From Microbacterium sp. (GTDB lineage Bacteria; Actinomycetota; Actinomycetes; Actinomycetales; Microbacteriaceae): a stretch of 64,000 bases of DNA. Numbering within the stretch: the first letter of the stretch is position 1; each line of letters opens with the position of its first letter. This document shows positions 39,437-45,338 of this stretch, one piece after another. The notes beneath the pieces are model-generated. The model was not told where the DNA came from and ran no database searches. It was given only the letters and a program-made list of their open reading frames with translations. Where the stretch lies: the NCBI RefSeq assembly GCF_031179285.1, contig NZ_JAPSHY010000002.1, positions 62,001 through 126,000 on the forward strand. Reading direction: 5' to 3'. The position numbers were made by a program, and so were the translations under genes.

Positions 39437-40333
39437 ATGTCTTCATCGCCCCCCGTGATCGCCGTCGACCTCGGGAAGTCGCGTTGCCGGGTTGCTGTGA
39501 GCGACCGGCCGGGTCTTTGGGAAGGTCTCGGTTCTCCCGGTCTGGCTGAGTTCGAGGGGGCCGCCGCGGCATATCAGGCGATCTCTTCGGTGCTCGGAGA
39601 CATCGAGCTGCCCATGGGGGCACTCGGTGTCGGCGCAGCCGGAGCCTGGACGGCTCCCGACGCGGCATCCGACCTGGCGCGCCGCCTCGCGGACTCGACG
39701 CGAGCGCCCGTCGCCGTGGCGTCGGATGTGGTCACCGCGCACGCTGGAGCCCTGGCCGGCGCGGAGGGCGTGCTGCTCATCGCCGGAACCGGATCAGCGG
39801 CACTGGGCATCGAGACCGACGGTGCACGCCTCATCGACGGCTGGGGTCCGGACGTCGGCGACTTCGGAAGTGGATCGTGGTTGGGACGAGAGGCGCTTCG
39901 CGCTGTGCTGCGGGCGGATGCCGGCCTCGGCCCGGGTACCGTGCTGCGAGAAGCGATCGCTGGTCCTGTCGGCGCTCCGGGCGACATCGTGACATGGGCG
40001 GCCCAGAGCCAACCGCTCCCGCGCCACCTTGCCACGCTGGCGCCGCTCGTCCTCGATGCCGCAGCATCCGGCGATCCGGTTGCGACGGGCATCGCCGCAG
40101 AAGCCGTCCGACTGCTCACCGCCACGGCCGTGGCCGCATCTTCCCGCACGACGCAGGTCGCTCTGCATGGCGGGCTTGTCGCGCACGAGTGGTTCCGAGG
40201 ACGACTCACATCGTCGCTGGATGCCGCAGGGCGCGGTGTCACCCGCTCAATCGGCGACGCTCTCGACGGCGCCGCTCTGATCGCCCGTCGCTTCGATCTT
40301 CCCCATGAAAGGTTCGTTCACCGTGCCGAATGA
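39437..40333 (+). CDS. BadF/BadG-type ATPase, N-acetylglucosamine/MurNAc kinase-like
   Basis: VIAVDLGKSRCRVAV; LIAGTGSAALGIETDGARLIDGWGPDVGDFGSGSWLGREALRAVLR. Confidence 0.88.
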   Translation: MSSSPPVIAVDLGKSRCRVAVSDRPGLWEGLGSPGLAEFEGAAAAYQAISSVLGDIELPMGALGVGAAGAWTAPDAASDLARRLADSTRAPVAVASDVVTAHAGALAGAEGVLLIAGTGSAALGIETDGARLIDGWGPDVGDFGSGSWLGREALRAVLRADAGLGPGTVLREAIAGPVGAPGDIVTWAAQSQPLPRHLATLAPLVLDAAASGDPVATGIAAEAVRLLTATAVAASSRTTQVALHGGLVAHEWFRGRLTSSLDAAGRGVTRSIGDALDGAALIARRFDLPHERFVHRAE

Positions 40334-41258
40334 CGACTCTCGACTGACTGCCTTGCTGGACGTTCTCTCCCAGCTCGACACTGAAGCCTCGACAACGGAG
40401 CGAGGTGATCTCGATCTGCTGAGCACGGCAGAACTGGTTCGCCGGATGAACGCGGAGGATCGCCTCGTGCCCGCTGCCGTCGCGGAGTGCTCGCACGAGA
40501 TCGCTGCGGCGGTCGACCGGATCACGGAGCGATTTCGGCGGGGCGGACGACTCATCTACATCGGAGCCGGAACCGCTGGACGCATCGGCGTGCTCGACGC
40601 CAGCGAATGCCCGCCGACGTTCGGCACCGATCCATCGATGGTCGTCGGTGTCATCGCAGGCGGAGAGACCGCGATACGGTCGGCCGTCGAGAACGCCGAA
40701 GATGACGAGGAGGCCGCGGGTGTTTCGCTGCGCGAGCTCGGTATCGGCGAACGCGACACGGTCGTCGGCATCTCGGCGTCCGGTCGCACGCCGTATGTCG
40801 TCGGGGGTCTGACGTACGCGCGCAGTGTTGGAGCGCTGACGGTCGCGATCGCCTCGAATGCAGGGTCTGAGATCGGAGCCGCGGCCGACATCGCGATCGA
40901 AGTGGTGACGGGTCCGGAGTTCATCTCAGGATCGACGCGGCTGAAGTCGGGGACGGCGCAGAAGCTCGTCGTGAACATGCTGACGACGCTGTCGATGATC
41001 AAGCTCGGCAAGACGTATCGCGGGGTCATGGTCGATCTGCTCGCCACGAACGAGAAGCTGCACGCGCGATCCATCCGCACCGTGTCGCAGCTTGCGGGTG
41101 TCGACGTCGACGATGCCGCGCGTGCGCTCGCCGCGGCCGGCGGCTCGGTAAAGCTCGCCCTCCTGATGCTGGCGACAGGTGCCACGGCGCCGGTCGCCTC
41201 CGACGCTCTGGAGCAGGCGAAGGGAATTCTGCGCGACGCGATCGCCGCGCTCTCCTGA
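40305..41258 (+). CDS. murQ: N-acetylmuramic acid 6-phosphate etherase
   Basis: GGRLIYIGAGTAGRIGVLDASECPPTFGTDPSMVVGVIAGGETA; GISASGRTPYVVGGL; KSGTAQKLVVNMLTTLSMIKLGKTYRGVMVDL. GTG 40323 is an alternative start. Confidence 0.94.
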   Translation: MKGSFTVPNDDSRLTALLDVLSQLDTEASTTERGDLDLLSTAELVRRMNAEDRLVPAAVAECSHEIAAAVDRITERFRRGGRLIYIGAGTAGRIGVLDASECPPTFGTDPSMVVGVIAGGETAIRSAVENAEDDEEAAGVSLRELGIGERDTVVGISASGRTPYVVGGLTYARSVGALTVAIASNAGSEIGAAADIAIEVVTGPEFISGSTRLKSGTAQKLVVNMLTTLSMIKLGKTYRGVMVDLLATNEKLHARSIRTVSQLAGVDVDDAARALAAAGGSVKLALLMLATGATAPVASDALEQAKGILRDAIAALS

Positions 41259-41379
41259 CGGCAGATCACGGGAAGCCCGACCTGCGTCACAGTGCGTGAG
41301 CGGATTGCGAACCGGGTGACGTGCGATGCATGAGAGATGCATTTGTGAAAGCACGTGCCGCGAACGGGGAATACCTAGT

Positions 41380-41980
41380 GTGAGCACCGACAGCGACATC
41401 ATCGAACGCTCTCACCGAGAACCGCAGGCGTTCGGTGAGGTCTTCGACCGCCACGCGAGGGTCGTGGAGTCCTTTCTTCGGCGACGGCTCGGCGCCGATG
41501 CCGCGGAGGACTGTCTGAGCGAGACGTTCCTGATCGCTTTTCGGCGTCGCGGCTCATTCGATCGTGAGTGGGCATCGGCTCGACCGTGGTTGCTTGGGAT
41601 CGCTGTTCGAGTCGCCGGTAGACACCGTGCGACGGAAGCCAAGCATTGGCGTGCAGTGGACGCATCGGCTGCACGAGGTGAGCACACGAGCGGGGGCGGC
41701 ATCGCCGAGGCGGACGGGCGAGTGGATGCTGCCTCCGCCATCCGAATCCTCGCCCCGGATCGCGGCCCTGTCCAAGAGGGATCGTGACACGTTCCTGCTT
41801 CATGCCTGGGGCGAGCTCTCGCATGAAGAAATCGCGGAGGCGCTGGGAATCCCGGTCGGTACCGTCGGATCCCGGCTTCATCGCGTCCGGCGCAAGCTTG
41901 CGCCACCCGGAGCACCGACAACACGACTCAACTGGATCGGAAGGGAGATCGATGATGGAACTGTCAGAGCTCGTGCGTGA
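41380..41980 (+). pseudogene. ECF-type RNA polymerase sigma factor, frameshifted
   Basis: Region 2 in one frame (RSHREPQAFGEVFDRHARVVESFLRRRLGADAAEDCLSETFLIAFRRRGSF...SAIRILA). Region 4 in the +1 frame (RIAALSKRDRDTFLLHAWGELSHEEIAEALGIPVGTVGSRLHRVRRKL). Switch near a CCCC run at about 41753-41758. Confidence 0.8.
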
Positions 41981-42996
41981 GATCGAGAGTGCACCCGATC
42001 CCGCCGTCACCGCACGCATCGAACGATCGCGCGCACGTGTGATGACGTCGATCACTACACCGCGCGGGCGGCGGGTGCCGTCCCGATGGGTGTGGGGCGG
42101 GACGGTCGCGGCAGGAACGGTCACCGCGGGAGCGATAGTCGCGACCGTCGTCATCGCCGGGGCGGTCGCGCCCCTGGCAGCTCAGCCGGCGTCAGCCGCC
42201 GCGGTCGCCGTGCTCGATCGCGCGGCGAGCCTCGTGATCCGCGAGACAGAACCCGTCGTCGGGCCCGGTCAGTATCTGCGAGTACGCCGGGTTCAATGCC
42301 TCGATACTTACAGAATCCGAGGGTGCAGTGCACGCCCGGGGTGTCCGCGACCTCTACGTCCCGAGCGACCGGTCAGACGACTGGATACTCGATGACCGAC
42401 TGACCAACGAGATTCTCAATGTCTTCGGCGACCAGCAGGTGCTGCCCGCGTACGAGCGGATGCTGGCGGCGACGCCTGAACGTGACGCCGACCCTGCCGG
42501 CATCGAGTCCTTGCCCGGAGGGCTTCAGACCTGGGAGACCGACGTTACGGAAGATGATCAATACTGGGATCCTTTCCGCGAGGACTATGCCGACATGCCG
42601 CGTGACCCTCAGGAGTTGTTGAACTGGTACCGACAGCACCTGTCGTCTCCGGACGACTGGTACCTGTTTCACACGATCGGTCGCTATCTCAGCACCGATG
42701 TGATGCCGAGTGATCTACGTGCGGCGTCGCTACGGGCGCTTGGCCTCATCCCAGGTGTCGACGTGGCCGGCTCGACTGGCTCCGTGACCACCTTGCGAAT
42801 GTCCGCGGCGCTCAGCGAAGGCAACGAGTTCGGAGACCTGCTCGTGTCGGAACTCGACATCGACACGAGTACCGGTCGAATCGTCGGCAGTCGCGAGATA
42901 TACCCGCATAGGTCCACGAAGCTTCTTCCCCGTGGCATGCCTTGGGTCTCGTGGAAGGTCGATGTTTCGATCGTGGAGGTTGCACCCGCGCCGTGA
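41952..42996 (+). pseudogene. Membrane-anchored sigma-partner protein (CU044_5270-like), frameshifted
   Basis: MMELSELVREIESAPDPAVTARIERSRARVM + TM helix ... GPGQYLRV in one frame. Then YAGFNASILTESEGAVHARGVRDLYVPSDRSDDWILDDR...WKVDVSIVEVAPAP in the +1 frame. Confidence 0.7.
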
Positions 42997-43083
42997 CGTC
43001 GCAGCTATCCCGCTCGTCGACATCGCGGTAAAGGAAGGGGCGCGGCGCCCGGGCTCCCATCACCGATGAGTAGCCTTCGAAGA

Positions 43084-44512
43084 TCAGATGCGTCTGACCA
43101 GCGCGGGTTCTCGGGTGGGGTGGTGCGTGCGCCATTGTCGCGCGGGGTCCCACCAGGCGGGTCCGCGGATTTCGGGTGTGCCGTGATTCATGCGGATGTC
43201 CCATCCGCTGGTGTGGAGTGTGCGGTGGTGGAACCAGCACAGCGCGACGCCGTTGTCGGTGTGGGTGGGCCCGCTCTTGGCGTGGTCTTGAACGTGGTGG
43301 ATCTCGCACCAGGTGGCGCGGACGTGGCAGCCGGGGATGACGCACTCCCTGTCGCGGAGGGTGATGGCGCGTCGTTGGTGGTGGGTGAAGATCCGGTCGG
43401 TGGTGCCGATGCTCACGATCCGCCCGTTCTTGTCGAACAGGACGCGTTGGATGCCGCCCGCACACGCAGTGTGAGCGGCGACCGAGACCGGGACGGGAGT
43501 GTCGATCCCGTCGACGTGCGACCACCCGGACCCGGACGCGAGGTCCTCCGCCGTTACAGAAACGACAAGGGTGGGGGCGGCGCCACCGAGGGTGGGGACG
43601 TCGTCGTGACGGGCAGCGACCGTGAGTACCGCAGCCAAGGCGTCATGGCGTTTCTGCGGCGCGGTGCGAGAGTCGACGAACTCGAGGGGAGCGGTGTCGT
43701 CGTCGCTGGTGTCACGGGTGGAACATCACACCCGACTCACCCGGGTGCGGTGGCCCGTCGACCTTCGGAGAGCAGTACGCGTCGAGGAGGCGCTGCAACT
43801 GTCCCGCTGCATCCGGAAGAAGCGCACCGCGGAGGGAGACCACGCCGTTCTTCTCCCGCCCGAGGGTGAGAAACCTCTCCCGCAGCGCCCGCTCATCCGC
43901 CGGCTCCGCACCGTCTTCATCAAGATAGGTGACGATCACCTGGGCGAGCACTCGCAGATCGTCTGGGATCGCAGGAGGAGCCGCGTCGTCTGGGTCGGTG
44001 GCACCGTGTCCGCGGGCGAAAGCCGCAAGCTCCGCATCCGCCCGCAATCGGTCCGCCGCACCCACGCGCGGCCCGGCCTGCTCGATCGGCCCGGTCGCCG
44101 CCAGCAACCCCGAAACGCCGACCGTCCCGTCCAGCAGCGCTTCCCGCAACGCTGGCCACCGCGCCGGCAACGGCGCCCCGGTGGTGAGCTCGACCTCACG
44201 ATGCATCAGGTTCGCCGTCTTCAGCACCCGACCCGCCTCGTGCGAATCCGTACGCAGTACCCGCTGCAGCAGTTCGTTTATGTTCCGGCATCCGAACCGC
44301 CGCGGAAAAGTATCGACTCCTGAGACACCCGGGCCGCCGTCTATCGACGCCACCGTCTCCAGGATCAGGGCATCCAACAGCCGTTGCGCATGCCCGGCCG
44401 CCTGCAACAGCTCCATCTTCTCGGTCTCAGACAGCGTCGCGCCAGCATCCGCAGCGGCCAGCCGACCCAGGTCGGAAACGACCCGATCGAGGAGCTCCGC
44501 GGTGCTGTTCAT
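43084..44512 (-). pseudogene. DUF222/HNH endonuclease-domain protein split by a +1 frameshift
   Basis: N-part MNSTAELLDRVVSDLG...PDAAGQLQRLLDAYCSPKVDGPPHPGESGVMFHP*. C-part DTSDDDTAPLEFVDSRTAPQKRHDALAAVLTVAARH...CVIPGCHVRATWCEIHHVQDHAKSGPTHTDNGVALCWFHHRTLH. Confidence 0.85.
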
Positions 44513-44672
44513 ACCCACCATTCAACACTGGGCCACCGACATTGACAGCGGTGCTTTCCCCAGATCAGGAGATCTTTAGAAGCCGATCCTCGCCTGCTCT
44601 CGCATACTCCCACCTAAGACCATTTCGCCCTCCAGAACATCCTTGTCGCTAGGCGTCCGGTAGCGTGTCCGG

Positions 44673-45338
44673 ATGCCCCTCGCTTTGATCACCGGTGCCG
44701 CGCGCGCCGACAGCATCGCCGCCGGCATCGTTCCTCGCCTGCGTGCCGCCGGCTGGACGGTCGTCACCAGCGATCTCTCTGACGCCGACCTTGACGCCGA
44801 CCTCTCGACGGCGGACGGACCCGACGAACTCATCGCCCAGGTGAACCGCGAGCACGGCACGATAACCGCCCTCATCCTCAGTCACGCCCACGACGTTCAG
44901 TCCGGCATCCTCGACACGACCGCCGCCAGCTTCGATCTGCATGTCGCCGTGAACGCCAGGGCGAGCCTGCTCCTGATCGCCGCCTTCGCCCGTCAGGCAG
45001 GCGATGATGGCGGCGTCATCGTCGCACTCACGAGCGACCACGTCACGGGCAATCTGCCGTACGGCGCGTCGAAGGGCGCCCTCGATCGCCTGGTGATCTC
45101 GGCGGCGCGCGAACTCGGGCCGCGCGGAATCTCAGCGAACGTGCTCAACCCCGGCCCGATCGACACCGGCTGGATGGATGACGACACCCGCAGCAGTCTC
45201 GGAGCCATGACGCCGCTGGGCCGGCTCGGGCGTCCGGCCGACGTCGCCGCCGTGGTGGAGTTCCTCGTGTCGGAGGAAGGGCGCTGGATCTCGGGGCAGT
45301 TGCTCAAGAGCGACGGGGCGTTCTCCGCGCGATACTGA
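44673..45338 (+). CDS. SDR-family oxidoreductase
   Basis: MPLALITGAARADSIAAGIVPRLRAAGWTVVTSDL; LTSDHVTGNLPYGASKGALDRLVISAARELGPRGISANVLNPGPIDTGW. Confidence 0.88.
   Translation: MPLALITGAARADSIAAGIVPRLRAAGWTVVTSDLSDADLDADLSTADGPDELIAQVNREHGTITALILSHAHDVQSGILDTTAASFDLHVAVNARASLLLIAAFARQAGDDGGVIVALTSDHVTGNLPYGASKGALDRLVISAARELGPRGISANVLNPGPIDTGWMDDDTRSSLGAMTPLGRLGRPADVAAVVEFLVSEEGRWISGQLLKSDGAFSARY

Follow-up and report, generated by a model that had tools for sequence, protein, structure and literature searches.

Introduction

Of 378 pseudogenes in Salmonella, 346 have just one lesion, and short deletions are the most frequent type (Kuo and Ochman 2010, PMC2916853), while horizontally acquired genes are enriched in pseudogenes (Liu et al. 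2004, PMC522871). Caution over any newly found break is nevertheless needed, since 28 of the 73 gene interruptions in M. smegmatis turned out to be errors of sequencing (PMC1852416). Here we describe three neighbouring broken genes in a stretch of 64,000 nucleotides from a Microbacterium sp. (contig NZ_JAPSHY010000002.1, positions 62,001 to 126,000), hereafter referred to as the window. They encode an extracytoplasmic function (ECF) sigma factor, a membrane partner of the CU044_5270 family, on which a literature search found no paper, and a DUF222-HNH protein. The three genes are probably the contents of one dispensable accessory insert that was recently inactivated by separate short deletions.

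Results

The broken genes are located between murQ (40305–41258) and a gene for a short-chain dehydrogenase/reductase (SDR; 44673–45338), which are separated by 3.4 kb in the window. The corresponding spacing is 39–43 nt in four congeners (G022, G002, G040, and G201) and ~108 nt in two others (G278 and G204). Alternative cargo at this site comprises a 180-residue membrane protein, an amine-oxidase-like gene with a TetR-like regulator, and a transposase-like gene, all named from the sequence and not by a family search. Because the site is near-empty or differently filled in relatives, the three broken genes together make up one entire accessory insert, whose approximate boundaries are 41260–44657. 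No convincing terminal or target-site repeats of a mobile element were found around it. Across the genus the murQ–SDR gap is a variable slot, which is empty, filled with other cargo or occupied by the sigma–partner–HNH insert (the window; L167, L168, L177, and L179).

Six-frame translation showed that the sigma gene (41380–41980, plus strand), the partner gene (41955–42996, plus strand), and the DUF222-HNH gene (44512–43084, minus strand, convergent with the sigma–partner pair) each have one open frame as far as a break, 3' of which the coding sequence resumes in the +1 frame. Stop codons are otherwise absent from all three. Family-specific sequence flanks every break: Sigma70_r2 and Sigma70_r4_2 in the sigma gene, DUF222 and DUF222 plus HNH in the HNH gene, and NF038083, which matched both halves of the partner in a profile search. 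These results agree with the original prediction, made from the sequence, that three adjacent genes are split between two frames.

The 5' part of the sigma gene (41380–41745, plus strand) has a GTG start, contains region 2 (Sigma70_r2, E = 1.7e-9) and is 80–83% identical to the orthologues in G142 and G143. The 3' part (41753–41980, plus strand, +1 frame) contains region 4 (Sigma70_r4_2, E = 1.8e-16). Regions 2 and 4 with little else, both above the Pfam cut-off, are the composition of an ECF sigma factor; here they are placed in two frames and not in one polypeptide, and the gene is a disrupted member of the family. A codon alignment with 14 intact orthologues located the break at 41740–41756 (plus strand), where two bases are missing within the codons of the LAPRIAAL motif. 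The predicted position of this break at a C run was borne out, as the site holds CCCC within a CG-rich stretch. The base composition of the gene is mildly atypical (GC3 of 0.665); long decay as the cause of this low value was rejected, since the dN/dS analysis described below indicates recent decay.

A promoter-like motif, TGAA...GGAATACC, is present just 5' of the sigma GTG start (41346–41375, plus strand) in an alignment of the upstream regions of the window gene and 10 orthologues, and it persists in the window despite the break. The motif is conserved at the equivalent place, a few bases 5' of the GTG, in L033–L046. Judging from the aligned sequences, it probably serves as an ECF-type promoter for a message with little or no leader, and its placement suggests that this sigma family may make an autoregulated, leaderless ECF transcript.

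The partner gene is directly 3' of the sigma gene, an order kept in all of the 14 close orthologues. Its 5' part (41955–42280, plus strand; NF038083, E = 1.9e-12) includes a hydrophobic segment, and its 3' part (42286–42996, plus strand; E = 5.2e-11) is in the +1 frame. The two halves scored 47.6 and 42.9 bits, below the curated NF038083 cut-off of 100 bits, which many intact relatives of this partner subgroup likewise do not reach. At the break (42270–42295, plus strand), comparison with orthologues revealed a deletion of 38–74 nt (59–74 nt relative to six of the seven), which removed ETY..(V/I)(S/T/A)LWDAD, a segment shared by all eight orthologues in the comparison. The junction string CGAGTACGC is readable as part of either flank, a pattern that would be expected of a deletion between short direct repeats.

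The 5' part of the DUF222-HNH gene (43712–44512, minus strand; DUF222, E = 9.8e-10) ends at a TGA just past the break. The 3' part (43084–43690, minus strand, +1 frame) matches the C-terminal part of DUF222 (E = 7e-6) and retains an intact HNH motif, visible in the translation although the HNH profile match is weak and under its cut-off. An anti-phage role of the gene was considered and dropped, as the search for it gave just a weak HNH-motif match. The break (43700–43736, minus strand) is situated in a length-variable linker that is two bases shorter than that of an intact paralogue on contig C28 of the same genome (L096; 81% identity). The gene has the arrangement of DUF222 followed by an HNH motif that is typical of the multicopy actinobacterial proteins of the 13E12-repeat type, and differs from them in being interrupted in the linker.

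The predicted +1 frameshifts therefore need a partial revision: the common direction is real, but the lesions are not single-base slips, with two bases missing from both the sigma and HNH genes and 38–74 nt from the partner. No single-base correction would restore the partner. Each of the net losses is congruent to 2 modulo 3, and this accounts for the common direction. Agreement among three shift directions has a chance of ~1 in 4, and a common mechanism is unnecessary.

The ortholog alignment that had been proposed as a check showed that all of the 14 close sigma–partner orthologues are uninterrupted and that it is the window that lacks bases at the breaks. A disrupted frame with intact orthologues elsewhere is the pattern of a recent pseudogene. 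In a genus-wide search the closest orthologous pairs were those of G142 and G143, with 76% DNA identity. The latter, from Microbacterium galbinum SSW1-36 (L187), shares with the window the gene pair and the upstream motif but, unlike the window pair, is intact and placed elsewhere in the genome, so that a synteny comparison of the frameshifts is not possible. A search of the genome contigs for a closer relative that might share the breaks found none, the nearest being M. galbinum at 82%.

Most copies of these families in relatives are intact, but broken ones also occur in other Microbacterium genomes. Among the fetched loci, a non-random set selected for their similarity to the window, the sigma gene is broken in two of 45 (G305 and G010; 43 full copies), the HNH gene in four of about 28 (G022, G005, G201, and G202; 24 full copies), and the partner occurs as 47 full copies and one fragment. 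Some of the broken copies come from near-complete assemblies. The two sigma orthologues (L049 and L018) are split by frame changes at positions different from that in the window, and the DUF222-HNH genes are broken at different points, by an in-frame stop (L079) or by frame changes (L083, L084, and L085). The HNH gene family thus appears to be often broken in the genus. In six loci (L006, L010, L011, L013, L054, and L056), two sigma(–partner) copies are close together, which suggests tandem duplication of the pair.

Selection on the three genes was estimated with a custom branch model with F3x4 codon frequencies and a single dN/dS for the window branch. The window-branch values were 0.067 (sigma), 0.053 (partner), and 0.118 (HNH), and the background values were 0.079, 0.099, and 0.110, respectively. 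Values above about 0.14, 0.11, and 0.20, respectively, were rejected for the window branch at the 5% level, and dN/dS was low on both sides of every break. Because the window branch is as constrained as the intact relatives, the breaks are recent, and the rejection of higher values limits the selection-free span to no more than about the final tenth of the branch.

Discussion

The cluster of three breaks is not due to chance. Breakage of all three genes of one insert exceeds the expectation for independent breakage and suggests that the insert as a whole was no longer needed. Among the explanations offered by the original prediction, the evidence most favours a decaying stress-response island: the genes form one accessory insert that is absent in several congeners, and each carries one lesion of the usual type. 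In this scheme, the need for the insert would have ceased, and separate short deletions removed 2 nt from the sigma gene, 38–74 nt from the partner, and 2 nt from the HNH gene. Loss of either the sigma factor or its partner would have left the other without a function to keep. Probably none of the products is functional: a sigma fragment with region 2 only, a shortened membrane partner, and a piece of the HNH protein with DUF222. What counts against decay is that three lesions within 3.4 kb, with no further signs of decay, require three events in a short time.

The strongest alternative is that one or both of the 2-nt losses are sequencing or assembly errors and that just the partner deletion is real, which we consider unlikely. 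The genome sequence is in draft form, with 79 contigs, M. smegmatis offers a precedent for such errors, and the sigma break has CCCC in CG-rich surroundings. Moreover, relaxed selection was not detected on any of the three genes, and breaks born of error would also leave dN/dS low. On the other hand, the usual platform errors are single-base slips in homopolymers, whereas the losses here are of two bases and outside long homopolymers. At 38 nt or more, the partner deletion is not a base-calling slip, and both 2-nt losses are near it, the sigma break within 600 bp and the HNH break ~1.4 kb away. A coding-frame scan over 628 kb of the same genome flagged 26 of 271 same-strand gene junctions; two were window breaks, and 19 of the others resemble ordinary gene boundaries by eye. 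Because the scan missed the sigma break, its sensitivity is limited, but no comparable cluster was seen in contigs C32, C28, and most of C39, and an assembly-wide error was rejected on this admittedly weak ground. The local assembly problem raised by the original prediction is accordingly improbable for the partner, with its missing segment and short-repeat-like junction, and conceivable for the two 2-nt losses, although these would be atypical errors.

Phase variation, that is, reversible on/off switching of the locus via indels at short repeats, is highly improbable. The sigma break lies at a short run of C, as the suggestion of reversible indels had pointed out, and in CG-rich sequence. However, no long tract or tandem repeat is present at any break, and the HNH linker break is away from any tract. 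At the sigma site LAP(R/K)IAAL is kept in all of the 14 orthologues, so the length variants that accompany a hypermutable tract in phase-variable genes are lacking, and the partner has lost a unique conserved segment that is beyond repair by slippage. The suggestion of reversible indels is thus unsupported.

It is hardly credible that the genes still function, either through programmed +1 frameshifting that would yield full-length proteins or through a sigma factor working as two subunits in the manner of the SigO/RsoA pair of Bacillus subtilis: the low dN/dS flanking every break and the one direction common to all shifts would fit, but no common slippery site is apparent, a start-codon scan found no in-frame start for the region-4 part 3' of the sigma break, the conserved partner segment would be missing even after recoding, and relatives encode uninterrupted proteins. 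If the sigma and partner genes did still give rise to product, whether through recoding or in the form of separate subunits, the locus would be a re-engineered ECF switch and not a dead one, a prospect to which we assign next to no weight.

The breakage of the three genes is therefore best read as ordinary gene decay, not as a new regulatory trick. Annotation would do best to label them probable pseudogenes instead of counting them as a functional stress-response module or nuclease. The locus also illustrates that unrelated deletions can yield one shared frameshift direction. With every gene broken and little other erosion, the insert is a tidy example of early accessory decay.

The insert resembles the failed horizontal transfers and decaying accessory genes described previously (Liu et al. 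2004, PMC522871) in occupying a variable slot and having no counterpart at that place in relatives, and differs from them in that its base composition is just mildly atypical. With the young bacterial pseudogenes (Kuo and Ochman 2010, PMC2916853), it shares one short deletion per gene in frames and upstream sequence that are otherwise intact; what sets it apart from these is that three neighbours in one insert were struck at about the same time.
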